From the IMG/VR virus record IMGVR_UViG_3300006875_000082, positions 1 through 32,147 of that record: DNA of 32,147 nt; one strand, 5' to 3'. Of the stretch, positions 18,640 to 32,147 are shown piece after piece (position 1 is the first letter of the stretch; every line of letters starts with the position of its first letter). Below the pieces are notes generated by a model. That model saw only the letters and a list, made by a program, of their open reading frames with translations. It made no database searches and had not been told where the DNA came from. Made by a program: the position numbers and the translations under genes. Source of the stretch: a virus.

Positions 18640-18640
18640 T

Positions 18641-18993: not shown

Positions 18994-18996
18994 GTT

Positions 18997-19073
18997 GGGG
19001 TTGTAGTTTAGTTGGTGAGAACACTCGCCTGTCACGCGAGAGGTCGCGGGTTCGATCCCCGTCAACCCCGCCA
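18997..19073 (+). tRNA. tRNA-Asp(GTC)
   Basis: Acceptor GGGGTTG/CAACCCC, stem CTCGC/GCGAG with loop CTGTCAC, discriminator G, CCA encoded. Confidence 0.92.
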
Positions 19074-19078
19074 AATAT

Positions 19079-19152
19079 TGGGATGTAGTGTAATGGGAGC
19101 ACCGGAGTCTCTGAAGCTCTTTGTCTAGGTTCGAATCCTAGCATCCCAGCCA
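19079..19152 (+). tRNA. tRNA-Gln(CTG)
   Basis: Acceptor TGGGATG/CATCCCA, anticodon loop CTCTGAA, discriminator G, CCA encoded. Confidence 0.88.
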
Positions 19153-19160
19153 GATTTCAT

Positions 19161-19234
19161 TACCATGTCGTCCAATGGCAGGACAACGGACTTTGAATCC
19201 GTGAATGGTGGTTCGAGTCCACCCGTGGTAGCCA
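19161..19234 (+). tRNA. tRNA-Gln(TTG)
   Basis: Acceptor TACCATG/CGTGGTA, stem ACGGA/TCCGT with loop CTTTGAA, CCA encoded. Confidence 0.88.
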
Positions 19235-19240
19235 CGTTTT

Positions 19241-19325
19241 GCCGGGTTCGCATAGTGGCGATTGCACCGCTCTTGTAAGGCGGCGAGGAAACTCCACGTC
19301 GGTTCGAGTCCGACACCCGGCTCCA
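19241..19325 (+). tRNA. tRNA with TGT (Thr) anticodon but long variable arm
   Basis: Acceptor GCCGGGT/ACCCGGC, stem CCGCT/GGCGG with loop CTTGTAA, so the anticodon reads TGT (Thr, ACA). A 14-base variable region contains a GAG-GAAA-CTC hairpin, which is class II structure expected for Leu, Ser or Tyr, not Thr. The D arm is nearly identical to the tRNA-Tyr at 19840-19925. Discriminator T, CCA encoded. The amino acid identity is uncertain. Confidence 0.75.
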
Positions 19326-19329
19326 GTAT

Positions 19330-19405
19330 GCCATCGTAGCTCAATTGGGAGAGCAAGACTTTCGTAAAGTCGAGGTTGGAGGTTCAAGCCCTCTCGATGG
19401 CTCCA
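19330..19405 (+). tRNA. tRNA-Thr(CGT)
   Basis: Acceptor GCCATCG/CGATGGC, anticodon loop TTCGTAA, discriminator T, CCA encoded. Class I shape. Confidence 0.88.
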
Positions 19406-19408
19406 TCT

Positions 19409-19485
19409 CGGAACGTAGCTCAGTTGGTTAGAGCAATCGCTTGATAAGCGATAGGTCGCTGGTTCGACTCCAGCCGTTCCGACCA
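19409..19485 (+). tRNA. tRNA-Ile(GAT)
   Basis: Acceptor CGGAACG/CGTTCCG, stem ATCGC/GCGAT with loop TTGATAA, CCA encoded. Confidence 0.9.
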
Positions 19486-19492
19486 CACATGT

Positions 19493-19566
19493 GGGTCAGA
19501 AGTGTTATGGTAGCACAGTGGCCTCCAAAACCGCGAGCGTAGGTTCGACTCCTACCTGATCCGCCA
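19493..19566 (+). tRNA. tRNA-Trp(CCA)
   Basis: Acceptor GGGTCAG/CTGATCC, anticodon CCA in loop CTCCAAA, discriminator G as in bacterial Trp tRNA, CCA encoded. One mismatch at the top of the anticodon stem. Confidence 0.82.
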
Positions 19567-19591
19567 ATTTATTGCGAGTTATTTAATTTAC

Positions 19592-19666
19592 GGCGGTATC
19601 TTCTAATGGTTAGGAAAGTGCTCTTTCAAGGCAACAATCGGGGTTCGATTCCCCGTACCGCTACCA
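19592..19666 (+). tRNA. tRNA-Glu(TTC)
   Basis: Acceptor GGCGGTA/TACCGCT (terminal G-U), anticodon loop CTTTCAA, T arm GGGG/CCCC, CCA encoded. Outermost anticodon-stem pair is a G-A mismatch. Confidence 0.82.
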
Positions 19667-19679
19667 GTATTTTGATTAT

Positions 19680-19754
19680 GCCGCTTAGGCTTAGACAGCG
19701 AAGCACGACATTGGTAATGTCGAGAGCAGGGCGCACGTCCCTGAAGCGGCTCCA
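19680..19754 (+). tRNA. tRNA-Thr(GGT)-like with non-canonical D and T loops
   Basis: All four stems pair perfectly: GCCGCTT/AAGCGGC, GCTT/AAGC, CGACA/TGTCG and CAGGG/CCCTG. The anticodon loop TTGGTAA reads GGT (Thr, ACC); discriminator T and CCA are encoded. The D loop (AGACAGCG) lacks the GG pair, and the T loop (CGCACGT) lacks the TTC motif. GCG in the D loop could pair with CGC in the T loop, replacing the usual contacts. Confidence 0.72.
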
Positions 19755-19758
19755 TTTC

Positions 19759-19834
19759 GGGCCCGTAGCTCAGTTGGGAGAGCGCCGCCTTTGCAAGGCG
19801 GATGTCGCAGGTTCGATCCCTGTCGGGTCCACCA
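19759..19834 (+). tRNA. tRNA-Ala(TGC)
   Basis: Acceptor GGGCCCG/CGGGTCC, stem CCGCC/GGCGG with loop TTTGCAA, CCA encoded. Confidence 0.92.
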
Positions 19835-19839
19835 GTTTC

Positions 19840-19925
19840 GGCGCGTTCGCATAGCGGCAATTGCATCTGGCTGTAAACCAGACGACCCACGGTCTACGGT
19901 AGTTCGAGTCTACCACGCGCCACCA
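19840..19925 (+). tRNA. tRNA-Tyr(GTA)
   Basis: Acceptor GGCGCGT/ACGCGCC, stem TCTGG/CCAGA with loop CTGTAAA, long variable arm as in bacterial Tyr tRNA, CCA encoded. Confidence 0.92.
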
Positions 19926-19927
19926 TC

Positions 19928-20007
19928 TTTACCGACCGATACGTGTAGAGTATATCCACACGCAGTAAGTCCATCAAGGGTCGCAACCTTGGGCAACGGT
20001 CGGTAAA
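19928..20007 (+). ncRNA. Unassigned structured RNA inside the tRNA array
   Basis: An 11-bp perfect closing stem (TTTACCGACCG 19928-19938 with CGGTCGGTAAA 19997-20007) encloses two hairpins. One has CGTGT/ACACG (19942-19946/19958-19962) and the other CAAGG/CCTTG (19975-19979/19987-19991) with a 7-base loop. They are joined by a 12-base single-stranded stretch. The T-rich TCTTTTTG follows. It is not a cloverleaf: the second hairpin does not abut the closing stem, and there is no anticodon arm in place. It fills the only large gap in the array, between tRNA-Tyr and tRNA-Asn. Confidence 0.6.
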
Positions 20008-20016
20008 TCTTTTTGT

Positions 20017-20091
20017 TGGGATGTAGCTCAATGGCAGAGCGTTCGGCTGTTAACCGAATGGTTGTAGGTTCGAGTCCTACCGTCCCAGCCA
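20017..20091 (+). tRNA. tRNA-Asn(GTT)
   Basis: Acceptor TGGGATG/CGTCCCA, stem TTCGG/CCGAA with loop CTGTTAA, discriminator G, CCA encoded. Confidence 0.92.
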
Positions 20092-20101
20092 TCTCTAAAA
20101 C

Positions 20102-20175
20102 GCGGCATTGGTGTAGTGGAAGCATGGAACCTTGCCAAGGTTCAGGTATCGGATCGTTACCGATATGCCGCTCCA
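20102..20175 (+). tRNA. tRNA-Gly(GCC) with altered T loop
   Basis: Acceptor GCGGCAT/ATGCCGC, stem GAACC/GGTTC with loop TTGCCAA, CCA encoded. The T loop is ATCGTTA: positions 54 and 58 read A and T where T and A are standard, as if the reverse-Hoogsteen pair were swapped. D-loop GG and T-loop TC are kept. Confidence 0.85.
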
Positions 20176-20176
20176 C

Positions 20177-20247
20177 GCGGGTATGGTATATCGGTTGTGC
20201 CTCGGCCTTCCAAGCCGAAGAAGTCGGTTCGACCCCGACTACCCGCT
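20177..20247 (+). tRNA. tRNA-Gly(TCC)
   Basis: Acceptor GCGGGTA/TACCCGC, stem TCGGC/GCCGA with loop CTTCCAA. CCA is not encoded (TTAC follows), so the 3' end must be added. It starts two bases after the CCA of tRNA-Gly(GCC). Confidence 0.85.
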
Positions 20248-20263
20248 TACCCAATCCATTTTT

Positions 20264-20338
20264 GTGCCGTTGGCTGATTGACGAGGCGAACGCCTGCAAA
20301 GCGTTTTCAAGATGGTTTGATTCCATCACGGCACTCCA
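20264..20338 (+). tRNA. tRNA-Cys(GCA)
   Basis: Acceptor GTGCCGT/ACGGCAC, stem AACGC/GCGTT with loop CTGCAAA, CCA encoded. T loop is TTTGATT (T in place of C56). Confidence 0.85.
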
Positions 20339-20343
20339 TCTAT

Positions 20344-20419
20344 GGTGGTATAACTCGATTGGAACAGAGGGCAGACTGTGACTCTGCTGAAGCGGGTTCG
20401 ATTCCCGTATACCACCCCA
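20344..20419 (+). tRNA. tRNA-His(GTG)
   Basis: Acceptor GTGGTAT/ATACCAC with an extra G at -1 opposite C73, the identity mark of His tRNA. Stem GCAGA/TCTGC with loop CTGTGAC, CCA encoded. Confidence 0.9.
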
Positions 20420-20422
20420 TAT

Positions 20423-20499
20423 CGGAGAGTGGGCTAAAGGCTGGCCGCCTGCCTTGGGAGCAGGATATCAAGCGAGTTCGATTCTCGCCTCTCCGACCA
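20423..20499 (+). tRNA. tRNA-Pro(TGG)
   Basis: Acceptor CGGAGAG/CTCTCCG, stem CCTGC/GCAGG with loop CTTGGGA, CCA encoded. Confidence 0.9.
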
Positions 20500-20503
20500 T
20501 CTT

Positions 20504-20578
20504 GGGTCGTAAGCATTCGTGGTGATGCTCTAGACTTTTAATCTGGCGAACCGAGTTCGACTCTCGGACGACCCACCA
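20504..20578 (+). tRNA. tRNA-Lys(TTT)
   Basis: Acceptor GGGTCGT/ACGACCC, anticodon loop CTTTTAA, CCA encoded. Confidence 0.9.
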
Positions 20579-20606
20579 TTTATCTTTCGGATGATATGCA
20601 GTATAT

Positions 20607-20682
20607 GTCGGTGTGGTCTAACGGAGAAGGCACGGTGTTTCTACCACCGAAGATGTGGGTTCGACTCCTACCACCGACACCA
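20607..20682 (+). tRNA. tRNA-Arg(TCT)
   Basis: Acceptor GTCGGTG/CACCGAC, stem CGGTG/CACCG with loop TTTCTAC, CCA encoded. Confidence 0.9.
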
Positions 20683-20686
20683 GTAT

Positions 20687-20761
20687 ACCAGTGAAGCCGA
20701 TTGGCGAGGCGCGACGCCCATACCGTCGTTGTAGTGGGTTCGATTCCCTCCGCTGGTACCA
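20687..20761 (+). tRNA. tRNA with CAT anticodon (elongator Met or Ile2), C33
   Basis: Acceptor ACCAGTG/CGCTGGT, perfect stem CGACG/CGTCG with loop CCCATAC, so the anticodon is CAT and position 33 is C in place of the near-universal U. A1-U72 is paired, so it is not an initiator. Met or lysidine-modified Ile2 cannot be decided from sequence alone. CCA encoded. Confidence 0.82.
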
Positions 20762-20762
20762 C

Positions 20763-20840
20763 GGGCACCGAGCGAGTCTGGTGATTCCGCGCCTGTCTGA
20801 AGAGCAGGAGAATGTGGTTCGATTCCACAGGTGCCCACCA
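20763..20840 (+). tRNA. tRNA-Phe(GAA)
   Basis: Acceptor GGGCACC/GGTGCCC, stem CCTGT/GCAGG with loop CTGAAGA, CCA encoded. Confidence 0.9.
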
Positions 20841-20847
20841 CATGTAC

Positions 20848-20930
20848 ACCCGCGTGTCGTAATGGCAGCCGAGGTAGACTCAAAATCTACTGCTCGAAAG
20901 AGCGTACTGGTTCGATTCCAGTCGCGGGTA
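20848..20930 (+). tRNA. tRNA-Leu(CAA)
   Basis: Acceptor ACCCGCG/CGCGGGT, stem GTAGA/TCTAC with loop CTCAAAA, long variable arm (GCTC-GAAA-GAGC). CCA is not encoded (ACTA follows). The HNH gene starts 13 bases later. Confidence 0.88.
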
Positions 20931-20943
20931 CTATCTAAGTACA

Positions 20944-21495
20944 ATGAGCGCAGATATGGAACAGACACTCTTACTCAACGCAACCTACGAACCAATGGAC
21001 GTCGTGCACTGGCAACGAGCGATGACGTTATGGTGTCAGGGAAAAGTGGAAATCGTCGAAACACATGATCGCGAAGTGCATGCGGTGACGTTCTCCTTCA
21101 AACTACCGTCTGTGGTGCGACTCCTTCGGTGTGTGCGTTCCAAGCGGCGGCCTGAAGTACAGTTCACACGGGCGAACATCTATGCCCGAGATAACTATAC
21201 CTGTCAATACTGTCGTCAGACCTATGCCACGCACGAACTGACATTTGATCATGTGCTGCCAGTCTCCCGAGGCGGGAAACGTAGTTGGGATAATATCGTC
21301 ACGTGTTGTCTTCCGTGCAATCGTTCCAAAGGTTCCAAGACGCCACACGAGGCGCAGATGGTGTTGCTGCGTAAACCTGCGAAACCCGCGTATACACCGG
21401 TGTTTCGTATCACACTCGGTATGCGGAAGACGCCCGAGAACTGGCGCGACTATTTGTATTGGTCAACAGAACTTGTCAACGACAACGATGCATAA
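20944..21495 (+). CDS. HNH endonuclease inside the tRNA array
   Basis: 183 residues. The HNH core is 'RDNYTCQYC' (Cys87, Cys90), 'LTFDHVLPVSRGG' (Asp102-His103), 'SWDNIVT' (Asn117) and 'CCLPCNRSKG' (Cys122/Cys125, Asn126). Two CxxC pairs would hold a structural zinc. The N-terminal 60 residues ('LLLNATYEPMDVVHWQRAMT') match the bacterial/cyanophage HNH type, not GIY-YIG or LAGLIDADG enzymes. It interrupts the array between tRNA-Leu(CAA) and the last tRNA, as free-standing homing nucleases often do, though nothing shows homing here. The start may be Met20944 or Met20956; neither has a good ribosome site. The message may arise by 3' processing of the tRNA just upstream. Confidence 0.82.
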   Translation: MSADMEQTLLLNATYEPMDVVHWQRAMTLWCQGKVEIVETHDREVHAVTFSFKLPSVVRLLRCVRSKRRPEVQFTRANIYARDNYTCQYCRQTYATHELTFDHVLPVSRGGKRSWDNIVTCCLPCNRSKGSKTPHEAQMVLLRKPAKPAYTPVFRITLGMRKTPENWRDYLYWSTELVNDNDA

Positions 21496-21566
21496 CAGGA
21501 GATCGTGACGGATGCTCTCTGAATTGGGAGACATTGCTATGGCGTGGTTTCGTTCAACCTTTTTTG

Positions 21567-21575
21567 TGGTATAAT
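21567..21575 (+). promoter_or_regulatory. Extended -10 promoter for the last tRNA (and perhaps the OmpA gene)
   Basis: TGG followed by TATAAT (21570-21575). No clear -35 box. Predicted start 21582, fifteen bases before the tRNA. Confidence 0.55.
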
Positions 21576-21596
21576 ATGTCTCGTGTAACATTGTAT

Positions 21597-21683
21597 TGGC
21601 GTGTGTCCGGAATGGCATCGGCCCTGACTGTTAATCAGTGCGCCCGAAAGGGAATGTAGGTTCGAATCCTACCACGCCAGCCA
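21597..21683 (+). tRNA. tRNA with GTT (Asn) anticodon and long variable arm
   Basis: Acceptor TGGCGTG/CACGCCA, anticodon stem CTGA/TCAG with loop CTGTTAA, variable arm with CCC-GAAA-GGG, T arm GTAGG/CCTAC, discriminator G, CCA encoded. Anticodon reads Asn, but the class II arm fits Leu, Ser or Tyr. A normal tRNA-Asn(GTT) exists at 20017-20091, so identity here is uncertain. Confidence 0.72.
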
Positions 21684-23306: not shown

Positions 23307-23485
23307 CCTATAACGTGTTGATATGACAGATGTTACGGGTAGTCTATACATATTTTGCATCAATCCATCCGGGTCGATACAATAAATATATCATCACGGG
23401 TGCTCGTAAGTCGTAGAATCTACACCACTTATACGTCATCATTCGTCTGCCCGGAGTTGACATCTTCATACACAGTCACTATAAT
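23307..23485 (+). promoter_or_regulatory. Cassette E: two operators and two promoters before the small-gene operon
   Basis: Operator 1 is a 33-bp palindrome-like site at 23307-23339, aligned base by base with those of the other cassettes. Promoter P1: TTGCAT (23355-23360), 17 bp, TACAAT (23378-23383). Operator 2: 23405-23435, with half-sites CGTAAGTCGTAGA and TCTACACCACTTATACG. Promoter P2: perfect TTGACA (23457-23462), 17 bp, TATAAT (23480-23485). P2 start is predicted at 23492, the A of the ATG. Operator 2 here is 22 bp from the -35, one helical turn more than the 12 bp in the other cassettes. Confidence 0.75.
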
Positions 23486-23491
23486 ACACGC

Positions 23492-23605
23492 ATGCTTAAT
23501 CATCAGTTTTCATTGACGGTATGGGATATTGTCGTACTGTTCATCGATGCGACATTCTTTGCTCTTGGGATTGGGTTTTACCTGCTACATATGGGAGTCA
23601 TCTAA
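23492..23605 (+). CDS. 37-residue membrane peptide, first gene of an operon
   Basis: MLNHQFSLTV... with one hydrophobic helix of about 24 residues ('VVLFIDATFFALGIGFYLL'). Function unknown. The ATG coincides with the predicted transcription start of a perfect sigma-70 promoter, so the gene would be read from a leaderless message. The next gene starts two bases after its stop. Confidence 0.6.
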   Translation: MLNHQFSLTVWDIVVLFIDATFFALGIGFYLLHMGVI

Positions 23606-23607
23606 TC

Positions 23608-23814
23608 ATGCATCGTCTCCGTCGCGTCTCGTCGCGATCATCAGTGCCTTCGTTTCAGTTGTTTCGTGTCGTCGAGCGGCATCCCGTCACGGGAGAGTTT
23701 GTCGTGAGTGCCTCTCTGACGCTGCGAGATGCGGAAGCGTTAGCGGATCGGTGTCTCGCGAGTCGGCCGCCGCAGTCGCGTGTACTGTATGCGGTTGAAC
23801 CGATGGGTCGCTAA
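23608..23814 (+). CDS. 68-residue basic hypothetical protein
   Basis: Starts two bases after the previous stop. Arg/Ser-rich N-terminus, then 'FRVVERHPVTGEFVVSASLT' and an Ala-rich helix. Not recognised. A longer in-frame start near 23521 would overlap the membrane peptide and lacks support. Confidence 0.55.
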   Translation: MHRLRRVSSRSSVPSFQLFRVVERHPVTGEFVVSASLTLRDAEALADRCLASRPPQSRVLYAVEPMGR

Positions 23815-23825
23815 CGGAATCGCGC

Positions 23826-24053
23826 ATGTCCGCCACAGGTTCATTACTCAGTCTCAGTGAAGAGGAACTACTCTTATTGCATGAGTTATTGACGTTTGTG
23901 ATTACGCATTACGAAGGCACCGATGCTATGACGGATGACGCGCTCGATGCGTTTATGAGATTGCAACAGAAGATCAACTTTCTGTTGGAAGTGACAGCGT
24001 TTCAGCGCGCCGTGACGCTACCCCATAGTAACACGTCATCACAAGTACATTAG
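23826..24053 (+). CDS. 75-residue acidic hypothetical protein
   Basis: 'LLSLSEEELLLLHELLTFVI' near the start resembles 'LHLTEDELTFLLELVHN' of the protein at 28913-29122, so the two may be distant relatives. Predicted all helical. No function known. Starts 11 bases after the previous stop. Confidence 0.55.
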   Translation: MSATGSLLSLSEEELLLLHELLTFVITHYEGTDAMTDDALDAFMRLQQKINFLLEVTAFQRAVTLPHSNTSSQVH

Positions 24054-24073
24054 TGAGGAGAAAAGAGATAAAG

Positions 24074-24355
24074 ATGATTCGAATGTATCAGCATATTGTG
24101 TGTGCGGATGGTGCCTCGGTGAGCATTCAGGCGGGTCGGCATATGTACTGCACTCCGCGTGATGACCGTGGCCCCTACACGCACATCGAAGCAGGGTTTC
24201 CCTCGGTGGAACCGCCCGCGTCGTGGCGCGAGTATGCGGAAGACCTCGACGCACTGACCGAGACAGTCTACGGCTACATGCCGTTCGACTGCGTGGATGA
24301 GTTCATCAACATCCACGGTGGCATGGTGAGCGGGGAACTGCCGCAGAGAGCATAA
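24074..24355 (+). CDS. Conserved phage protein of unknown function (93 residues)
   Basis: 'YQHIVCADGASVSIQAGRHM' followed by 'YCTPRDDRGPYTHIEAGFPS' and 'TVYGYMPFDCVDEFINIHGG' is a pattern common in small early phage proteins of unknown role. Start at ATG 24074 with GAGGAGAAAAGAG upstream. An in-frame start at 24053 would lie inside the preceding stop region. Confidence 0.65.
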   Translation: MIRMYQHIVCADGASVSIQAGRHMYCTPRDDRGPYTHIEAGFPSVEPPASWREYAEDLDALTETVYGYMPFDCVDEFINIHGGMVSGELPQRA

Positions 24356-24370
24356 GGAGAGGGTGAGAGT

Positions 24371-24802
24371 ATGTTTATCACACATCGCAACGGGTCGGTC
24401 ATTACTGACCAGTATGCATCGGTCGCTGACGCGGTTCATGCCGGCGTGGATCTGTCGTATGCGAATCTGTCGGATGCGAATCTGACGGGTGCGAATCTGA
24501 CGGGTGCGGATCTGACGGGTGCGAATCTGTCGTATGCGAATCTGACGGGTGCGAATCTGTCGTATGCGAATCTGACGGGTGCGAATCTGACGGGTGCGGA
24601 TCTGACGGGTGCGGATCTGTCGTATGCGAATCTGTTGGGTGCGAATCTGTGGGGTGCGAATCTGGCGTCAGCACATCTGTATCGTGCGGTTCTGACGGAT
24701 GCGGTTCTGACCCGTGCGAATCTGGCAGGTGCGAATCTGTTGGGTGCGACTCTGACGGGTGCGTGGACGTTTCTCGGTAATCAACTCGTGTCGTTGGCAT
24801 AG
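24371..24802 (+). CDS. Pentapeptide-repeat protein 1
   Basis: 143 residues. After a short N-terminal cap ('HRNGSVITDQYASVADAVHA') come about 20 A(N/D)LxG/S-type pentapeptides, giving a four-sided beta-helix. At DNA level this is a 15-base unit (GCGAATCTGACGGGT and variants). Such proteins can mimic DNA and inhibit gyrase (Qnr, MfpA), but many have unknown targets. AAGGAGAGGGTGAGAG precedes the ATG. The C-terminus 'WTFLGNQLVSLA' matches the cap of the next gene's product, so the two are a duplicated pair. Confidence 0.85.
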   Translation: MFITHRNGSVITDQYASVADAVHAGVDLSYANLSDANLTGANLTGADLTGANLSYANLTGANLSYANLTGANLTGADLTGADLSYANLLGANLWGANLASAHLYRAVLTDAVLTRANLAGANLLGATLTGAWTFLGNQLVSLA

Positions 24803-24820
24803 AGGAGAGAGAGAGAACCC

Positions 24821-25324
24821 ATGACCATTTATCATAAGAACGGTACGGTAATTACGGATCAGTATGACAGCATCGGAGCAGCCGTCAAGGCGGGAGCGGA
24901 TCTGGCAGGTGCGACTCTGGCAGGTGCGACTCTGGCAGGTGCGGATCTGACGGCCGCGAATCTGACGAATGCGGATCTGCGGAGTGCGAATCTGCTGGGC
25001 GCGAATCTGACGAATGCGGATCTGCTGGGCGCGAATCTGACGAATGCGAATCTGCGGGGCGCGAATCTGACGAATGCGGATCTGTGGGGTGCGGATCTGC
25101 GGAGTGCGGATCTGACGAATGCGGATCTGTGGGGTGCGGATCTGCGGAGTGCGAATCTGCTGGGCGCGAATCTGACGAATGCGGATCTGCTGGGCGCGAA
25201 TCTGACGAATGCGAATCTGCGGGGCGCGAATCTGACGAAGGTGAATCTGTGGGGTGCGAATCTGACGAAGGTGAATCTGACGGGTGCGATCATCTGTCTG
25301 GGCAACCGCCAGGTGACGCTGTAA
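24821..25324 (+). CDS. Pentapeptide-repeat protein 2
   Basis: 167 residues. N-cap 'HKNGTVITDQYDSIGAAVKA' and C-cap 'ICLGNRQVTL' are homologous to pentapeptide protein 1. The repeats are longer and richer in Asn/Asp-Leu-Thr-Asn units. A 104-bp direct repeat inside the gene (24971-25074 and 25136-25239) shows recent growth of the coil by whole turns. GAGGAGAGAGAGAG lies before the ATG. Gyrase inhibition is a known role for some relatives, but is only a possibility here. Confidence 0.85.
   Translation: MTIYHKNGTVITDQYDSIGAAVKAGADLAGATLAGATLAGADLTAANLTNADLRSANLLGANLTNADLLGANLTNANLRGANLTNADLWGADLRSADLTNADLWGADLRSANLLGANLTNADLLGANLTNANLRGANLTKVNLWGANLTKVNLTGAIICLGNRQVTL
24971..25074 (+). repeat. 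104-bp direct repeat, copy 1
   Basis: Identical by reading to 25136-25239, offset 165 bp (11 units of 15 bp), within pentapeptide protein 2. In-frame internal duplication. Confidence 0.85.
25136..25239 (+). repeat. 104-bp direct repeat, copy 2
   Basis: Second copy of 24971-25074. Identity ends where the second copy enters the divergent 'LTKVNLW' segment. Confidence 0.85.
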
Positions 25325-25340
25325 AAGAAGAAGAGAGAAT

Positions 25341-25604
25341 ATGATCATCACTCGCTGCTCGAACTGCGACCGCGTATTGACGACGGCACACGGGGTGCGT
25401 CTGGAAAGTGCCAACTTCTCGTCTGCACTTCCCACGCGACCTGCGACGACGACCATCACGTATGCGTGGTGTGATGGCTGTCTTGTCGATGCGTCTGGGC
25501 AAGATCGGGAGAGTTATACCGATACACAAGATCGCGCCAACTATCATGAAGAACAGGACACCGAACACATCGATGACGATCACACCTGCACAGATATTCG
25601 ATGA
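25341..25604 (+). CDS. Small zinc-finger-like protein
   Basis: 87 residues. 'TRCSNCDRVL' and 'AWCDGCLV' provide two CxxC pairs about 35 residues apart, so one zinc ribbon is likely. The C-terminal half is very acidic and His-rich ('HEEQDTEHIDDDHTC'). Function unknown. A GAAGAAGAGAG ribosome site precedes the ATG. Confidence 0.6.
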   Translation: MIITRCSNCDRVLTTAHGVRLESANFSSALPTRPATTTITYAWCDGCLVDASGQDRESYTDTQDRANYHEEQDTEHIDDDHTCTDIR

Positions 25605-25980
25605 GGCCTGTGGCGATTACCTGCGCTTTCTTGAACGGGATTATCATATTGTTCAGGATTTTCAGAATATCCCTCGCGCCCATCGGCACTGTGTGTTCGT
25701 GCTGCGTCATGGTACGTTGTTGCACTATGTGCTGCGCGTGATGCGGCACAGCGACGACGCATATACGCGCTCGGTGCATTCCTGTCTGGTGCGCCACGAT
25801 CATCCACGCATGCGGTTGCGGGCGGGAGATCTCTTACGCTATGCGGGTGTGCGCACACTGCGGACGTCTGCGGTGTATGGCAACATCTTTCAGTCGGACA
25901 GCTATCTCCGGTATGCACGATGGCATGATGACGTGTCACTGACGACACCGGTGCCGAACTCGATCTCGGAGACGTGGTAA
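25573..25980 (+). CDS. Hypothetical protein, paralogue of 27904-28248
   Basis: 135 residues from ATG 25573 (ATG 25546 is an alternative, giving 144). It overlaps the zinc-finger gene by about 32 bases. 'RSVHSCLVRHDHPRMRLRAG', 'DLLRYAGVR' and 'GNIFQSDSYLRYARW' line up with 'RSCHAFVVLTHPKFRTGD', 'LLKPATWKAP' and 'GNVLEPSSYRAQW' of the protein at 27904, so both belong to one small phage family. No known function. Confidence 0.55.
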   Translation: MTITPAQIFDEACGDYLRFLERDYHIVQDFQNIPRAHRHCVFVLRHGTLLHYVLRVMRHSDDAYTRSVHSCLVRHDHPRMRLRAGDLLRYAGVRTLRTSAVYGNIFQSDSYLRYARWHDDVSLTTPVPNSISETW

Positions 25981-25981
25981 C

Positions 25982-26467
25982 ATGTCATCAACCTTGACAC
26001 CGCTCTTCAGTAAAGCCAGTGATCTGTGGGGCACCCCCGCAGCCGTCTTTCAGCATTATCATACGCGCTATGGGTTCACCATCGACGCGGCCGCGAATGC
26101 ACAGATGACGCTGCTGCCGCGCTGGTGGGGGCCTGACTCGCGGTTGAGTACAGACGCGTTAGCCGTCTCATGGGCGGGAGAAACGTGTTGGTTGAACCCG
26201 CCGTATTCTCGCGTCAAAGACTTCACGCGCAAAGCGCGCCTCGAACAACTCGAACAGCGCGTCACCACGGTGATGCTGATTCCAAGTCGTACGGATACCG
26301 CGTATTGGCATGACTACATTTGGAATACCGCCGCGCACACCTGGCAGCATGGCATACAGGGGCAGTTCCTCCGTGGACGATTGAAGTTTCGTGATGCGCG
26401 AGGAACATCCATGAACCCGGCACCCTTTCCCAGTGTGGTGATCGTGTTTGACGGAGCGACCGTCTAA
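25982..26467 (+). CDS. dam: DNA N6-adenine methyltransferase, phage Dam-type
   Basis: 161 residues. 'DLWGTPAAVFQHY' and 'GFTIDAAANAQMTLLPRWW' are the opening of the phage Dam family (PF05869), and 'CWLNPPYSRV' (residues 69-78) is the catalytic NPPY motif. It methylates adenine in DNA, usually at GATC in this family, probably to protect phage DNA from host restriction or to mark replication. It starts one base after the previous stop, and its own stop overlaps the next ATG (TAATG). Confidence 0.82.
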   Translation: MSSTLTPLFSKASDLWGTPAAVFQHYHTRYGFTIDAAANAQMTLLPRWWGPDSRLSTDALAVSWAGETCWLNPPYSRVKDFTRKARLEQLEQRVTTVMLIPSRTDTAYWHDYIWNTAAHTWQHGIQGQFLRGRLKFRDARGTSMNPAPFPSVVIVFDGATV

Positions 26468-27057
26468 TGCCCTCACGCACCATTACGTCAGCACATATTC
26501 GTCAGTATGCCACGTCAGAGGACAGAGTGGATCATTATGATGATGCGATCGAACTGCGCCGATTCGTGTCTCTTCTGCATGCACACGTCTTTCCGAATCC
26601 GCAGCAGCGCGAGATCCGCATCAAACCGTATGGAAAGACCGGCGTCGATATCGGCGTCTTCGACCCCCGCTCCCGTGCGCTGGTCTGTGCGTTTGACGTC
26701 GAACGCTGTATGATATGGCAAGCGGATTGGCCCGCGCATTGGCGGTGTCTCAGTTTTCTCGCACGAAAAGAGAAGTACTTGCGGTTTCCGCAGTTTGGCA
26801 TGGTCTGGTTCAATCGCTCGGTCACGACGTGCGCCGTCGCATGGAAAGAGGATCTGGTGTCCGCGCCTCTCGTCACGCGTCGATTCTCCCGTCGTACCTA
26901 CACCGATCAGGTGCGAGAACTTCCATGTGCGGCCGGGACCTTGATCGGGCAGACGTTTGGTGTGCGTGAAACAGCACTGTTTACCAACCGTCGGACGTTC
27001 GATTTCACACAATCCGACGCACGACCCGCTCGGGAACAGATGCCCGTAACTCGTTGA
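26467..27057 (+). CDS. Hypothetical protein co-translated with the methylase
   Basis: 196 residues. 'KTGVDIGVFDPRSRALVCAF' and 'DVERCMIWQADWPAHWRCL' give a beta-rich core with acidic residues that could be a degenerate nuclease fold, but the PD-(D/E)XK signature is incomplete. The TAATG overlap with the methylase suggests related roles (a modification partner or nuclease), which is inference only. Operator 1 of cassette A (27043-27075) overlaps its last codons. Confidence 0.5.
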   Translation: MPSRTITSAHIRQYATSEDRVDHYDDAIELRRFVSLLHAHVFPNPQQREIRIKPYGKTGVDIGVFDPRSRALVCAFDVERCMIWQADWPAHWRCLSFLARKEKYLRFPQFGMVWFNRSVTTCAVAWKEDLVSAPLVTRRFSRRTYTDQVRELPCAAGTLIGQTFGVRETALFTNRRTFDFTQSDARPAREQMPVTR

Positions 27058-27209
27058 CAATCAAGCACATACGGGAATCGCATGCATGCAGCGCATCCTG
27101 CGGCAGACATTCATACAATCTTTGCATCCCAAACCCTCCTGTAACCCCTTGATAATCAAGCACTTACACGCATCCTCGATTTGACACTGCTGGCAGAATC
27201 TCCTATACT
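27043..27209 (+). promoter_or_regulatory. Cassette A: two operators and two promoters
   Basis: Operator 1: 33-bp palindrome 27043-27075 (ends CCCGTA and TACGGG, core GTTGACAATCAAG). P1: GCGCAT (27091-27096), 17 bp, TACAAT (27114-27119). Operator 2: 27140-27168, half-sites TGTAACCCCTTGA and ATCAAGCACTTACA. P2: TTGACA (27181-27186), 17 bp, TATACT (27204-27209), start about 27216. Operator centres are 95 bp apart; operator 2 ends 12 bp before the -35. Confidence 0.78.
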
Positions 27210-27217
27210 GTATGCAG

Positions 27218-27406
27218 ATGATGACTCGTAAACATTTTGTGCTGATTGCACACCTCTTCAAATCCACGAAGCCTGACGCGTCGAACACTGTCGCTATGCG
27301 GCAGTGGGAATCCACCGTCATGCAGTTCGCGCATGCGGGTGTCACGATGAATCCGCGTTTCAATGCCACTCGGTTTCTCAAGGCGTGTGATCTGTGGCTG
27401 CGCTAA
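27218..27406 (+). CDS. 62-residue small phage protein
   Basis: 'MTRKHFVLIAHLFKS' at the start and 'NPRFNATRFLKACDLWL' at the end match a small protein family common in phages and plasmids, function unknown. ATGs lie at 27212, 27218 and 27221. The predicted transcription start at 27216 removes the first, so 27218 or 27221 is favoured, giving a leaderless message. Confidence 0.6.
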   Translation: MMTRKHFVLIAHLFKSTKPDASNTVAMRQWESTVMQFAHAGVTMNPRFNATRFLKACDLWLR

Positions 27407-27408
27407 AC

Positions 27409-27651
27409 ATGCAGACGGAAACCGTGAGCGCATTTCTTGCCCGTGGTGGGCGCATCGTGCGGTGTGCGCCGTCGAAGCGCCCCGCGTATCGACCGACAAA
27501 GCTGCTCAACATGAAGCGCGGTCATAACCTGACCGGTCGCATCGTGCGCGTCGCGAATGCGCTGCCACCCTCGGATGGCCCTCGCGTGTCGTCACTGGAG
27601 CGATTGTCACAGTATCAGTGCAAGTACCGCCACTTACAGCGGATGCAGTAG
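27409..27651 (+). CDS. 80-residue protein with FLARGG motif
   Basis: 'VSAFLARGGRIVRCAPSKRP' near the N-terminus shares FLARGGxI with the protein at 15209. Basic, with Arg-rich C-terminal half. Starts two bases after the previous stop. Function unknown. Confidence 0.55.
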   Translation: MQTETVSAFLARGGRIVRCAPSKRPAYRPTKLLNMKRGHNLTGRIVRVANALPPSDGPRVSSLERLSQYQCKYRHLQRMQ

Positions 27652-27665
27652 AGGAGCAGAGAAAG

Positions 27666-27935
27666 ATGTATCGTTCAAACGTAGAGTGGTGGTGGAGTTG
27701 TGAAGCGGTGGCCGTCGGTGTCAATAAGCACGGGATTGCACAGGATATCGACGTCGCGACCCGAGAACCGGGACGCAAGAACATCGCCCGGCGCAGACTG
27801 CGCATGTATTTGGATGACGCCGCGCGGGCCACATGCGCGGAGCATGGATTGACGTTTGTGGGGTATCGTGAGGAGCCGAGTTATGACGGTGAGGGGATGG
27901 AATATGACGAATATTATGACGAATATGACATTTGA
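27666..27935 (+). CDS. 89-residue hypothetical protein with acidic tail
   Basis: N-terminal 'SNVEWWWSCEAVAVGVNKHG' then a basic helix and an acidic Tyr/Asp/Glu tail ('YDEYYDEYD'). ATG 27666 follows GAGGAGCAGAGAAAG. Not recognised. Confidence 0.55.
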   Translation: MYRSNVEWWWSCEAVAVGVNKHGIAQDIDVATREPGRKNIARRRLRMYLDDAARATCAEHGLTFVGYREEPSYDGEGMEYDEYYDEYDI

Positions 27936-28248
27936 ACTCAAAACGGCGATTGATCAGTACCTCGCCGCGTGTGAAGCGGATTACACGCGCATGTCGTATG
28001 CTTCCATGCGGCAGATTCGGTTTATACTCGATCCCGGTCGGAAGTTCATCCGCATCTGGCGCCAGTTCGATGGCGAGTCGAGTCGGTCGTGCCATGCGTT
28101 TGTGGTGCTCACGCATCCAAAGTTTCGCACTGGTGACTTGCTGAAGCCCGCGACGTGGAAAGCGCCCGCAATGAACGCGGCGCGTGGGAATGTGCTGGAA
28201 CCGTCGTCGTATCGTGCGCAGTGGACGGGCCCCGAGTATTTGCGCTAA
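27904..28248 (+). CDS. Hypothetical protein, paralogue of 25573-25980
   Basis: 114 residues from ATG 27904 (GAGGGG eight bases upstream; ATGs at 27916 and 27925 also possible). It overlaps the previous gene by 32 bases, just as its relative overlaps its own upstream neighbour. 'IRFILDPGRKFIRIWR', 'SCHAFVVLTHPKFRTGDLL' and 'ARGNVLEPSSYRAQW' define the shared family. Function unknown. Confidence 0.58.
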   Translation: MTNIMTNMTFELKTAIDQYLAACEADYTRMSYASMRQIRFILDPGRKFIRIWRQFDGESSRSCHAFVVLTHPKFRTGDLLKPATWKAPAMNAARGNVLEPSSYRAQWTGPEYLR

Positions 28249-28273
28249 GAGAACCATAGAGGAGTCGAGAGAG

Positions 28274-28723
28274 ATGATTACCACAGCGTTTGCGTTTGCA
28301 GGTCGTGCGTCGTACGTGATCGAGAACCCGAAAGGGGAATCCGTCACTGTCAAGTTGAGTCGGTCGAAGGCGGGGAACGTGAATCCCTACACCGGCCAGC
28401 CGTACGCGGAAACGTTCTTTGTCTCGCTGCGACACAATAACGCGCCGTGGATGTTTGTCGGAAAACTCGATGCGCAGCGGCGCAAGATTCTCGCGACGTC
28501 AAAGGTGGAAGCCTACTGCGACCTGGTGGAAGCCTACTGGCAGTCGCCGGCGGGTGCGCGAGCGATTGCCATCGCGCAGTGGTCGCTGGATCTCATCCAT
28601 GCACGGGCGACGGTGCCTGCGGGCTATCGTCTCGCGCATACCGGTCGCTGCGGAAAGTGCGGGAAGTTGCTCCGGGATGCGGAAAGCATTGCGCTCGGAT
28701 TAGGGCCGGTGTGCCGCGGGTGA
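28274..28723 (+). CDS. Small protein with C-terminal DUF6011-like zinc finger
   Basis: 149 residues. The last 30 residues, 'GRCGKCGKLLRDAESIALG' ending 'GLGPVCRG', hold three cysteines in the CxxC...C pattern of DUF6011-type zinc motifs. The N-terminal 'FAGRASYVIENPKGESVTVK' and 'GQPYAETFFVSL' region is beta-rich and common in phage proteins. GAGGAGTCGAGAGAG before the ATG. Possibly nucleic-acid-binding. Confidence 0.62.
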   Translation: MITTAFAFAGRASYVIENPKGESVTVKLSRSKAGNVNPYTGQPYAETFFVSLRHNNAPWMFVGKLDAQRRKILATSKVEAYCDLVEAYWQSPAGARAIAIAQWSLDLIHARATVPAGYRLAHTGRCGKCGKLLRDAESIALGLGPVCRG

Positions 28724-28739
28724 TTCCCCGTCGCACAGA

Positions 28740-28906
28740 CCCGTAACGCGTTGCACATCACGCACATACGGGAATCGTATGCATGGTGCGCATGGTGCTC
28801 GACGATGGCATACAATCTTTGCATGTCAAAACTTCCTGTAACTCCTTGAAAATCAAGCACTTACAGATACCCCTGATTTGACAGGTTCGCGGGTTTCGCA
28901 TACACT
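28740..28906 (+). promoter_or_regulatory. Cassette B: two operators and two promoters
   Basis: Operator 1: 33 bp at 28740-28772 (CCCGTAACGCGTTG ... ACATACGGG). P1: GCGCAT (28788-28793), 17 bp, TACAAT (28811-28816). Operator 2: 28837-28865. P2: TTGACA (28878-28883), 17 bp, TACACT (28901-28906). Start predicted at 28913, the A of the ATG. Operator centres are 95 bp apart. Confidence 0.78.
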
Positions 28907-28912
28907 ATACCT

Positions 28913-29122
28913 ATGAGTAACGACATGACTGGCACGTTGCATCTCACGGAAGACGAACTGACGTTCCTGCTGGAACTAGTGCACAACGAGATGTACACTG
29001 CGAATACGAACATCGTGCTTGCGGAGAATCTCGCGGCTCGGCTGTCTCGCGATCTGCACCATGTGCGGATGGAGAACGAAGACGCAGAGGCCGTCGCTGC
29101 ATGGGATGCGGTGTCGTGGTAA
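28913..29122 (+). CDS. 69-residue acidic hypothetical protein
   Basis: 'TLHLTEDELTFLLELVHNEM' and an all-helical acidic remainder; distantly like the protein at 23826-24053. It is the only gene between cassettes B and C. The ATG lies exactly at the predicted transcription start, so the message is leaderless. Function unknown. Confidence 0.58.
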   Translation: MSNDMTGTLHLTEDELTFLLELVHNEMYTANTNIVLAENLAARLSRDLHHVRMENEDAEAVAAWDAVSW

Positions 29123-29140
29123 CGCGCATCGATGCCATGT

Positions 29141-29259
29141 GCGCATGGTTCGGATGCGAGCCATAGAATGTTCGCATCCCAAACTCGTCTGTAAGTCGTT
29201 GATAATCAAGCACTTACAGACACCCAACATTTGACAGATTGTTTGAAAGGGAGTACACT
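29141..29259 (+). promoter_or_regulatory. Cassette C: P1, operator 2 and P2 (no operator 1 seen)
   Basis: P1: GCGCAT (29141-29146), 17 bp, TAGAAT (29164-29169). Operator 2: 29190-29218, the most symmetric copy, with half-sites TGTAAGTCGTTGAT and AATCAAGCACTTACA. P2: TTGACA (29231-29236), 17 bp, TACACT (29254-29259). Start predicted at 29266, the A of the ATG. A separate inverted repeat GGATGCGA/TCGCATCC (29152-29159/29172-29179) brackets the P1 -10. Confidence 0.75.
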
Positions 29260-29265
29260 TTAGGT

Positions 29266-30597
29266 ATGAAAAATGCTCGGTATGCAGTGATTCTTGAGAT
29301 TGCGCGTCAAAACAACGGTATGGTGCGGTGTGACGATCCCGCGTTGATTGCGGGTTTGGGTGATACCGCGTATCGGTTGCCGACCTATATCGGCGACATT
29401 CGTCGCAAAGAGGGATTGACAGTCGAACCCCTCAAGTCAGGTCGTACCGTCGTCGCGTACACCTTCCCGGCGTTTGCAGACGGCTCCGCGCCGGTTTCCG
29501 CACCTGTCGTCGCAGTCAAGACGGCAAAGCCCGCAAAAGGGCCGAAAGCCGCTCCTGTGGTGGTTCCTGCGGTCGATGTGGAATCGCTGGTCGCGAGTAC
29601 TGACAACGCGTCAAGTCTGTCACTGACGGCGAGTGCCGCGAGTTCGAAGTCGGAGATTACCGCATTACTGCGAGAACTCGCGACGGGTGACAGTGCACTG
29701 GTGAAGGTGCCTGCCAAGCTGCGCGAGTTTGTGCCCTTCGGTCAGTATGACGTCGTGCATCGGATTGTCTCGTCTCGCGTCTTCTGCCCGATCTTCATCA
29801 CCGGACATTCCGGAAACGGCAAGACGCTGCAAGTCGAACAGGCGTGCGCGGCGGCGAACCGCGAGTTTTTGCGCGTGAACGTGACGGCTGAGACGGATGA
29901 GGATGCGCTGATCGGTGGATTCCGTCTCAAGAACGGCAATACCGTGTTTGAGTTTGGCCCTGTCGTACAGGGTATGATTCGCGGTGCGGTGCTCCTGCTC
30001 GACGAAATCGATCTTGCGGGGCCGAAGATTCTCTGCTTGCAGTCGCTGATGGAAGGCAAGCCGATGGTGATCAAGCCGCTCGGCATCACGATTGCGCCTG
30101 CGCCGGGGTTCACCGTCGTCGCGACCGCCAACACGAAGGGTCGCGGGTCTGACGATGGCAAGTATATCGGGACCGGCCCGCTCAATGAAGCGTTTCTCGA
30201 ACGGTTTCCGATGACAATCGAGCAGGAATATCCGGGCGCCGCTGTGGAGAAGAAGATTCTCACGAAGACGTACGAGTCGTATGGCGGTGTCGTAACGGAT
30301 GGTGTCCTGACGTTTGCGGATACGCTCACGAAGTGGGCAGACGCGATTCGTGCGACGTTCAACGAAGGGGGTATCGAGGATGTCATCTCGACGCGCCGTC
30401 TGTGCCACATCATGCGCACGTATCAGATTTTCGGTGATGAATCGAAGGTGCTGGCGCTCTGCTTGAACCGCTTCGACAAGTCGGTGCAAGCGAAGTTCTT
30501 GGATCTGTATGCCAAGTTGTCGCCGAGCGCAGCGGGTGCGGCGGCCACGTCCGTCAGTGACGATCCTCGCGTCATTGCTGCCCCGGTGAACTTCTAA
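29266..30597 (+). CDS. cobS: CobS/MoxR-like AAA+ ATPase
   Basis: 443 residues from ATG 29266. N-terminal 1-65 looks like a winged-helix domain; 70-130 is a Pro/Ala/Ser linker. The AAA+ core has 'TGHSGNGKT' (Walker A, Lys186), 'AVLLLDEIDLAGP' (Walker B, Asp246-Glu247), 'GFTVVATANTKGRG' (sensor 1) and 'LNEAFLERFPMTI' (arginine-finger region). This is the CobS/MoxR class found in cyanophages, whose partner is a CobT-like protein with a metal-ion-binding domain; such a partner is encoded at 31077. Role in phages is unknown: cobalt chelation or remodelling of another complex. A longer frame from 29239 begins within the promoter and is rejected. Confidence 0.82.
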   Translation: MKNARYAVILEIARQNNGMVRCDDPALIAGLGDTAYRLPTYIGDIRRKEGLTVEPLKSGRTVVAYTFPAFADGSAPVSAPVVAVKTAKPAKGPKAAPVVVPAVDVESLVASTDNASSLSLTASAASSKSEITALLRELATGDSALVKVPAKLREFVPFGQYDVVHRIVSSRVFCPIFITGHSGNGKTLQVEQACAAANREFLRVNVTAETDEDALIGGFRLKNGNTVFEFGPVVQGMIRGAVLLLDEIDLAGPKILCLQSLMEGKPMVIKPLGITIAPAPGFTVVATANTKGRGSDDGKYIGTGPLNEAFLERFPMTIEQEYPGAAVEKKILTKTYESYGGVVTDGVLTFADTLTKWADAIRATFNEGGIEDVISTRRLCHIMRTYQIFGDESKVLALCLNRFDKSVQAKFLDLYAKLSPSAAGAAATSVSDDPRVIAAPVNF

Positions 30598-30614
30598 TCG
30601 AAAGGGATCCCCAC

Positions 30615-30893
30615 ATGCATCTGACACCAGAAACACTGAAACTCTACGATCTCGTGGCCTCGCAGATCAATACGCTCGCGTGGACATGCTTGCTGGCGTA
30701 TGTCGCACGGCTCACGCAGCAGTACCTGATGCACCGTTTGACGGTGCTGCAGCATGGGATTCTCGAAGCGGTGAGTGATTGCGGGTGTGCGCCGCACACG
30801 GATACCGATGCGACAGCGCCCGGGTCGTCCACCGGGACGAATGCGATTGGATTCCACCATGCGGTCGAGGAACCCGATGAGGATGACGACTAA
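30615..30893 (+). CDS. 92-residue hypothetical protein with acidic tail
   Basis: A helical first half ('LYDLVASQINTLAWTCLLAY') with one possible amphipathic or membrane-leaning segment, then a Cys pair ('DCGCAP') and a very acidic end ('EEPDEDDD'). AAAGGGAT lies before the ATG. It follows the AAA ATPase gene closely, and operator 1 of cassette D starts eight bases after its stop. Not recognised. Confidence 0.5.
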   Translation: MHLTPETLKLYDLVASQINTLAWTCLLAYVARLTQQYLMHRLTVLQHGILEAVSDCGCAPHTDTDATAPGSSTGTNAIGFHHAVEEPDEDDD

Positions 30894-30900
30894 CCGCTCT

Positions 30901-31066
30901 CCCGTAAGTGCTTGAAATACAAGCATTTACGGGGATGTATGCGTCACACGCATACTGGTCGGGAGAGTATAGAAAGTTTGCATACTAAAATACCCCGTAA
31001 GTCGTTGAAAATGCAGGGGTTACGGATATCCCCGGTTTGACAGGGATGCCGGTTTCGGAATATACT
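30901..31066 (+). promoter_or_regulatory. Cassette D: two operators and two promoters
   Basis: Operator 1: 30901-30933, nearly perfect palindrome (CCCGTAAGTGCTTG ... CAAGCATTTACGGG). P1 weaker: ACGCAT (30948-30953), 16 bp, TAGAAA (30970-30975). Operator 2: 30996-31024. P2: TTGACA (31037-31042), 18 bp, TATACT (31061-31066). Start about 31073, four bases before ATG 31077. Operator centres are 93 bp apart. Confidence 0.75.
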
Positions 31067-31076: not shown

Positions 31077-32147
31077 ATGATGATGAATCACTCCTCCTCT
31101 CCCACGAACTGGTCAAAACATGTGCAGTTGGATGATCAGAAGCGTGGCCTTGCGCGTCTCATGGCGCGTGAGAATATCACCGTCGAACATGGTGCATACG
31201 AGACAGCTTCCTTTGACGTCGAGACTCGCGTGTTACGGCTCCCGCTGTGGGACAATGTGACGCTCGATCAGTATGACCTCCTGATTGGTCATGAAGTCGG
31301 TCACGCGTTGTATAGCGACGATTTGTCGTTTATTGACGATTGCAAAGCCGCTCCCGGTTTGCATACCTTCATTAACGTGCTTGAGGATGTGCGCATTGAG
31401 CGCCGCATCAAGGATGCGTTTCCTGGCATGCAGGGTGCGTTTCAGCGCGGCTACCGTGACTTCTTCGAACACGGCCCGCTGTTTCAGTTGACGAAGCCGG
31501 TTGCGGAATACAGCTTCATTGACCGCATTAACATCCATTACAAGATTGGTGCGCACGTGACGGTACCGTTCACGGATGATGAACGTGCGATTCTCGCGAA
31601 GGTCGACGCCACGCGTACGATGGGTGACGTCATTGCGCTGGCCAAGGAACTGTACGGCGCTGCCAAGTCTGAACAGAAGAAGCAGAATCCTGAGTCGGGA
31701 TCGCAGTCGTCGAAGCCGTCTTCTGACGAAACGACTGGCCAGTCGCCGACGGCGAAGTCGTCGGATTCAGAGTCTAATTCAGAGTCGGACTCAGAGTCTA
31801 ATTCAGAGTCGGATTCAGAGTCGGACTCAGAGTCTAATTCAAAGTCGGATTCAGAGTCTAATTCAGAGTCGGATTCAGAGTCGGATTCAGAGTCGGATTC
31901 AGAGTCGGAATCGAGTTCGGATTCAGAGTCGGATTCAGAGTCGGAATCGAGTTCGGATGCGACGTCAGAATCGGATGTGACGTCGGATGCGCCGCATGCG
32001 GAAACGGATATGGCGAACGCCGCTGCCATGAAGACGATGCAGTCTGCGACGTCTGACGTGCGCACCGTGACGCATGTGCCGCTGACGAAGAGTGAAGCGG
32101 ATGCCTACACCGTGAGTGTCGCGGACGTCGTGCGCGAAGCGGTGCGG
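31077..32147 (+). CDS. cobT: CobT-like protein with HEVGH zinc motif (partial, runs off the right edge)
   Basis: 357 residues visible, C-terminus beyond the window. 'LLIGHEVGHALYSDDL' holds an HExxH zinc site (His72, Glu73, His76), and 'FINVLEDVRIERRIKDAFPG' about 25 residues on supplies a likely third ligand and is typical of CobT-like/VWA partner proteins of MoxR ATPases. Residues about 229-294 are a Ser/Asp/Glu repeat linker. A VWA domain is expected after it but not seen. Pairing with the CobS-like ATPase under the same type of cassette suggests one complex. ATGs at 31077, 31080 and 31083 are all possible. Confidence 0.72.
   Translation, partial: MMMNHSSSPTNWSKHVQLDDQKRGLARLMARENITVEHGAYETASFDVETRVLRLPLWDNVTLDQYDLLIGHEVGHALYSDDLSFIDDCKAAPGLHTFINVLEDVRIERRIKDAFPGMQGAFQRGYRDFFEHGPLFQLTKPVAEYSFIDRINIHYKIGAHVTVPFTDDERAILAKVDATRTMGDVIALAKELYGAAKSEQKKQNPESGSQSSKPSSDETTGQSPTAKSSDSESNSESDSESNSESDSESDSESNSKSDSESNSESDSESDSESDSESESSSDSESDSESESSSDATSESDVTSDAPHAETDMANAAAMKTMQSATSDVRTVTHVPLTKSEADAYTVSVADVVREAVR
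31761..31957 (+). repeat. Ser-Asp-Glu/Asn coding repeat
   Basis: Units of 12 and 18 bases around TCGGATTCAGAG and TCTAATTCAGAG in the CobT-like gene, giving an acidic low-complexity linker (SDSES, SNSES). Likely variable in length between isolates. Confidence 0.8.

Follow-up and report, generated by a model that had tools for sequence, protein, structure and literature searches.

Paired palindromes ahead of strong promoters recur in a tailed-phage fragment and in many other viral contigs

The IMG/VR record IMGVR_UViG_3300006875_000082, analysed here over its whole length of 32,147 bases (the window), is a tailed-phage fragment with a tRNA cluster, a CobS/CobT-like gene pair and, between positions 23307 and 31066, five intergenic regions in which palindromes precede a strong promoter. 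What are these palindromes for, and what acts on them? The explanation we regard as probable is that each region (cassette) combines an upstream regulatory module for a dimeric DNA-binding protein with a strong leaderless promoter; we infer that the palindromes bind protein and control transcription. The dimer would occupy the palindromes, usually two of 27 bp, upstream of a sigma70-type promoter whose transcript would start at or beside the start codon. Bound on one face of the helix, it would contact RNA polymerase or bend the DNA toward it, and the outcome would be a joint setting of level or timing for many single small genes.

Palindromes and promoters of the five cassettes

The cassettes are named A (before 23492), B (before 27218), C (before 28913), D (before 29266) and E (before 31077). 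Scores are from position weight matrices (PWMs): the independent PWM was built from other viral contigs alone, the refined PWM from 419 sites, 7 of them window sites.

23307-23339, no strand: site A1, degenerate 33-bp palindrome, core 23310-23336, score 5.6, 96 bp from A2
23406-23432, no strand: site A2, 27-bp palindrome, refined PWM 16.1, independent PWM 7.8
23457-23485, + strand: promoter A, TTGACA-17-TATAAT, ATG at 23492, six nt past the -10
27043-27075, no strand: site B1, 33-bp palindrome, core 27046-27072, refined PWM 31.6, independent PWM 28.1
27114-27127, + strand: conserved block TACAATCTTTGCAT between B1 and B2 (weak promoter of the initial annotation), equivalents at 28811, 29164 and 30970
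27141-27167, no strand: site B2, 27-bp palindrome, refined PWM 36.9, independent PWM 42.3
27181-27209, + strand: promoter B, TTGACA-17-TATACT, ATG at 27218
28740-28772, no strand: site C1, degenerate 33-bp palindrome, core 28743-28769, refined PWM 10.8, independent PWM 6.1, 95 bp from C2
28838-28864, no strand: site C2, 27-bp palindrome, refined PWM 38.5, independent PWM 41.5
28878-28906, + strand: promoter C, TTGACA-17-TACACT, ATG at 28913
29191-29217, no strand: site D2, 27-bp palindrome, identical at 27/27 positions to a site of another phage (L036:1881, record G029:18160-18186)
29231-29259, + strand: promoter D, TTGACA-17-TACACT, ATG at 29266 (CobS-like AAA+ gene)
30901-30933, no strand: site E1, 33-bp palindrome, core 30904-30930, score 28.7, arms complementary at 12/13 positions
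30997-31023, no strand: site E2, 27-bp palindrome, score 27.9
31037-31066, + strand: promoter E, TTGACA-18-TATACT, ATG at 31077 (CobT-like gene)

An initial annotation of this sequence had claimed nine sites in five homologous regulatory cassettes, and a PWM scan of the full sequence recovers the palindromes at the claimed places, and also in other viral contigs. With the independent PWM, eight of the nine score at least 5 in the 32,147-bp window, against an average of 0.02 such matches in shuffled windows. With the refined PWM, the nine claimed sites are the nine best positions of the whole window (40.8, 38.5, 36.9, 31.6, 28.7, 27.9, 16.1, 10.8 and 5.6). Judged by 300 Markov-1 simulated windows, whose best score has a mean of 2.5, a standard deviation of 3.9 and a maximum of 17.5, six sites lie far above chance, A2 is borderline to good and C1 is weak; A1 is by itself not significant, and the case for it is its distance to A2.

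Centres of paired sites lie 96 (A), 95 (B), 95 (C) and 93 bp (E) apart; the near-constant spacing claimed before thus stands, its values of 95, 95, 93 and 97 bp corrected. The cassette said to lack a first site was that before 28913, where C1 is in fact present; it is upstream of D2, before 29266, that a first site was looked for and none found. In A the centre of the second site lies 38 bp ahead of the -35 box, in the other four cassettes 27 bp (positions -73 and -62, respectively), in agreement with the earlier remark that one copy sits a helical turn further away. B, C and D, and E less so, are 70-83% identical over about 60-95 bp and by this kinship are diverged duplicates, E in part, so that their equal spacings are not independent and are weak evidence for constraint inside the window. 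This kinship speaks for a simple recent duplication of one promoter region within the window, which together with pure chance we give next to no credence: the same motif and layout occur independently in more than 100 other viral contigs, and D2 is shared base for base with another phage.

The promoters are strong, as had been proposed, with five TTGACA boxes followed at 17-18 bp by TATAAT, TATACT or TACACT. Overlooked before was the position of the ATG, only 6-10 nt after the -10 hexamer in 5/5 cassette genes, because of which the five transcripts are probably leaderless. The weak promoter that had been placed ahead of the second palindrome fares less well. Its TASAAW block is present in 5/5 cassettes, only that of A passes a promoter scan (9/12), and a strict pattern of window-type block with palindrome matches nothing in other viral contigs, whose palindromes are separated by GC-rich sequence; a tandem weak promoter is not supported outside the window.

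Among the genes named as controlled, the CobS-like AAA+ gene (29266) and the CobT-like gene (31077) do follow cassettes. Neither the Dam-type methylase (25982) nor the pentapeptide proteins (24371 and 24821) have a cassette of their own; all three are co-directional with A and sit 0.9-2.5 kb further downstream. The pentapeptide-repeat proteins form a neighbouring pair at 24371-25324 with 15-bp DNA repeats, and the CobT-like protein contains a long serine-aspartate/glutamate repeat (31770-31960) coded by tandem GATTCAGAGTCG-type units. The tRNA cluster (18453-21683) comprises 28 genes on the + strand with most amino acids represented.

Other assemblies of the same phage are 100% identical to the first part of the window and stop short of cassette region B-E. 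Three more distant relatives of the lineage, whose coverage lies outside B-E, hold mainly structural genes and no normal copy of the palindrome. A single variant palindrome, GTAAGTCCTGCGTTTGCAACAACTTAC, is present in relatives of the window phage (L213:266-292 and L215:730-756), where it precedes a T4-late-like TATAAATA and an ATG.

Spread of the motif and anatomy of the pairs

The motif is GTAAsTCsTTGA-NNN-TCAAsGAsTTAC with the core GTAASNSNTTGA-NNN-TCAANSNSTTAC, symmetric over 27 bp and holding about 30 bits of information. It is found in well over 100 IMG/VR contigs, mostly as pairs; a related pattern matches 52 viral-contig stretches and the strict pair pattern at least 120. Among 49 whole viral records, single ones hold as many as 27 copies, and the control pattern read backwards gives about zero. 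Across 257 Gb of prokaryote genomes GTAASNSNTTGAWAATCAASNSNTTAC has only eight exact matches, and the strict symmetric form occurs in 1/289 genomes of one phylum and 0/398 of another. BLAST against named phages and plasmids gives essentially no match, and a literature search found no description of the palindrome sequence as a phage element. As far as sequence can tell, this is a real, widespread and under-described phage motif.

Several of the eight cellular matches lie directly 3' of tRNA genes and look like chance terminator hairpins. A Verrucomicrobiota-like metagenome-assembled genome (G051; L202-L209, L060) has about ten real-looking copies, single and unpaired, one of which (L203:3538) is followed after 42 nt by a perfect TTGACA-17-TATAAT and then, one nt on, by an ATG. 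Bordetella parapertussis plasmid BPP5P1 has a perfect copy beside a GC hairpin and before a mobilization gene (L200:7250-7276), and the single-stranded DNA phage Microviridae MG945696 has a good copy in non-coding sequence (L201:2107-2133).

Copies within one phage differ in sequence, yet as a rule their spacing does not vary by a single base (49, 50, 41-42 or 52). Modal spacings across loci are 41-42, 48-50, 52-53 and 58-60 bp, with 50 bp (4.8 turns) dominant, so the nine-turn spacing on which the initial annotation had remarked is specific to the window. In the L087-L162 group the spacings fall at 42, 50, 58 and 66 bp, that is in 8-bp steps and not in helical turns. The spacer between palindromes is GC-rich (73% vs 42% in the loci) and sometimes hairpin-forming. 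Pairs are intergenic, usually near the stop of one gene and 50-190 bp ahead of the next start, and where both neighbouring genes of a site cluster were called, the gene that follows is co-directional in 78 of 109 cases. The sites show a twofold enrichment of alignment breakpoints (0.113 vs 0.057).

Typical cargo of operator-rich loci is GP88 (39 positive, 0 negative loci) and DUF932 (32, 0). Three loci (L068, L086 and L012) contain a sigma54-like TTGGCACG-N4-TTGC that ends 12-15 nt from the palindrome and is oriented toward it, as well as CTTGTCAAG plus A-tract elements between pair and promoter. Promoters reading into the palindromes (TTGACA, or the sigma54-like TGGCACG-N4-TTGC) were considered for some pairs and set aside; most of the TTGACA cases turn out to be a TTGTCAAG element read on the other strand, and the gene starts are called on the opposite side.

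Helical phasing and mode of action

In the other phages, too, the palindromes stand upstream of sigma70-type promoters, as had been claimed for the window: 123 flanks downstream of pairs score at least 24, against 22 when shuffled. The distance from -10 to ATG peaks sharply at 6 nt, and among about 230 strong leaderless promoters all but 2 are downstream of palindromes, which almost never overlap the -35, the -10 or the start. The distance from the last palindrome to the -10 varies (about 0-190 bp) yet is periodic (n = 146 non-redundant promoters, R = 0.275, period 10.75 bp). Related promoters were removed for this test, and the observed value lies beyond every jittered control (p < 2e-4). The preferred phase is identical in the near, middle and far distance bins, individually significant in the nearest only, and the preferred distances are about -65, -76 and -87. 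Helical phasing, proposed before for the window, is thereby upheld on promoters of other phages. The most likely reading of this periodicity is that a protein bound upstream works from one particular side of the helix; the periodicity thus supports an upstream-acting dimeric regulator.

The site itself has the character of a protein dimer site. Agreement between the arms matches the expectation from composition at positions 6-8 (0.71/0.71, 0.58/0.59 and 0.41/0.39), and the outer arms of the two paired sites likewise show no covariation. Arms that vary independently point to a protein dimer site and not to an RNA hairpin, which favours the protein-binding sites of the initial annotation. RNA or single-stranded DNA hairpins (terminators, RNA structure, recombination hairpins or attC-like cassette sites) would suit the near-perfect inverted repeats, the GC-rich and sometimes hairpin-forming spacers and the enriched breakpoints. 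We nevertheless consider them very improbable, given the phasing and the missing covariation within or between sites and U-run; the window cassettes show nothing terminator-like with a T-run on the gene strand. For an RNA hairpin or terminator in particular, the absent covariation and the placement upstream of the promoters, and hence outside leaderless transcripts, are the grounds on which we reject the reading.

Two further roles for a bound protein have to be weighed against the preferred one. Repressor operators that switch the cassette genes off, via looping between sites or contact with polymerase, would fit strong consensus promoters, a site pair at fixed spacing and genes of accessory type; ordinary repressor operators, however, overlap the -35, the -10 or the start, and here the distances spread over about 190 bp, so that we think repression rather unlikely. 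Less likely still, and in our view improbable, are boundary elements or roadblocks that halt transcription from the upstream gene in the manner of mycobacteriophage stoperators. The first palindrome often coincides with the upstream stop codon or lies no more than tens of bases from it, and copies are many across intergenic regions, but a roadblock does not need helical phasing to the downstream promoter, and stoperators are asymmetric and oriented (PMC9283540) where these sites are symmetrical and usually paired.

Several observations weigh against an upstream-acting dimeric regulator. Near-consensus promoters with strong -35 boxes need no activator. The window distances from palindrome end to -10 (36 and 47, one turn apart) are about 90-140 degrees, depending on the period, off the face preferred in the other phages, and a second, protein-selected promoter set is too small to confirm the phasing (n = 16, p = 0.16). 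No binder was identified among the candidates examined. The activator proposed in the initial annotation accordingly survives in part: its upstream, helically phased position is supported, a class I position fixed near -62 does not hold in general, since the distance elsewhere runs from about 0 to 190 bp, and the bound protein may activate or repress.

Candidate binders and known systems

Three kinds of binder come into question. A further dimeric regulator, encoded by phage or host, has about an even chance; a host DNA-bending protein of the IHF/HU type on symmetrical IHF-like sites is a possible but less favoured binder; and anything else takes a small remainder. Operator-rich phages have a common core of PhoH-like, zinc-ribbon, sigma-factor-like, 350-aa and ERCC4 nuclease proteins, none of which is present in the window. 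Searches of 50,697 named phage records for relatives with three of these proteins gave none for two and a partial ERCC4 match for the third. The 350-aa protein is conserved in these phages, is encoded beside a sigma factor and in its AlphaFold model (pLDDT 81) has a helix-turn-helix-like N-terminus and a coiled coil, with no significant fold match. Only 9 of 59 protein-selected loci of at least 9 kb hold two or more sites, which speaks against it, and it is an unlikely binder. It is encoded in at least 590 viral stretches (L220-L299), which form a large group of phages with no isolate among the named phages. When 100 proteins were scanned against Pfam, no helix-turn-helix family common to the operator regions was found among the 25 families listed of 45.

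PF00216 (HU/IHF) was detected in 1 of 31 records searched, several of them fragments, and not in the window fragment. The count tells against the preferred reading as far as a phage-encoded binder of this family is concerned, and on it a phage-encoded HU/IHF system (SPO1 TF1-like DNABII) is rejected; that the phages mostly do without the family speaks for a host-supplied IHF. TCAA-N4-TTA, on both arms of the motif, is the core of the IHF consensus WATCAANNNNTTR; the full consensus is met on at least one strand in 520 of 948 sites, on both in 64, and B2, C2 and D2 of the window contain AATCAAGCACTTA. The first 30 kb of lambda were scanned with the motif, whose training set was confined to these phages and the window: the attP IHF-consensus sequences at 27751 and 27605 come fourth and sixth with the full motif, and the trained half-site puts 27605 in second place. 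We take 27751 and 27605 to be the H' and H1 IHF sites, which are not annotated in the record.

A host IHF-like bender is thus, on motif resemblance, a serious candidate. In this account IHF, or a homodimer like HU/IHF, binds the palindromes as architectural sites, the promoters are modulated by paired bends that fold the DNA upstream of them, and the motif is shared through the host factor; it names the binder inside the preferred explanation. Variable distance, absent overlap and helical phasing would all follow, as would the sharing of sites between the window lineage and an unrelated phage clade whose core genes the window lacks, since a host protein common to unrelated phages would explain sites without a common phage-encoded binder. 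IHF, though, requires neither strict palindromy nor the conserved S-G-A-S between TCAA and TTA, and this conservation beyond the need of IHF also counts against our reading; moreover, the lambda scores are low in absolute terms and the strict form is nearly missing from host chromosomes. We hold this account as a tentative one, somewhat ahead of repression. Similarly tentative is the broader proposal of a promoter code that crosses lineages, in which paired symmetrical sites for one factor that binds or bends DNA, at phage-specific spacing and helically phased to strong leaderless promoters, would define a regulon of single-gene accessory units and would be shared because the factor is a host protein.

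If true, many uncultivated phages of different lineages would have in common a regulatory layer that can be read from sequence alone. It would give a handle for predicting co-regulated genes (mostly without assigned function), leaderless start codons and, if the factor is a host protein, possibly hosts, and it would make the timing of accessory genes in such phages directly testable with one DNA fragment and a lysate.

Among known systems, CRP at class I promoters binds as a dimer; its site has its centre at -61.5 or lies further upstream by whole helical turns, and transcription requires contact between CRP and the alpha subunit of the polymerase. The cassettes resemble it in a dimer-type site upstream of the -35 at distances in helical steps, and differ in having no fixed set near -61.5, paired sites and strong promoters. 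PeSL cassettes of T4-type phages reportedly consist of an early promoter and a terminator-like stem-loop and are mobile. They are likewise repeated intergenic promoter cassettes before small accessory genes, and the cassettes described here, with breakpoints enriched, possibly also spread with their genes; here, however, a protein-type palindrome pair lies upstream of a leaderless promoter, there is no terminator and the arrangement is common to unrelated phages. The lack of a T-run terminator and of covariation between the arms places them outside the PeSL class. IHF sites share the half-site core (WATCAANNNNTTR in the 520 sites above), but are asymmetric and degenerate, whereas these are symmetric with about 30 bits. 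A kinship with CRISPR-repeat mimics (Racr, PMC10651486), which match host CRISPR repeats, seems unlikely: the eight cellular loci are single matches without arrays and copies vary within a phage, which argues against such mimicry. L5-type operators and stoperators of mycobacteriophages, finally, are present in more than 20 genome-wide copies and are asymmetric 13-mers, bound by a monomer and oriented with transcription (PMC9283540). Many copies of one regulatory site across promoter and short intergenic regions are common to both, but the present sites are symmetric 27-bp palindromes, usually paired at fixed spacing and phased to the promoter, and do not belong to the stoperators. Among the multi-copy regulatory sites of phages they form a variant.

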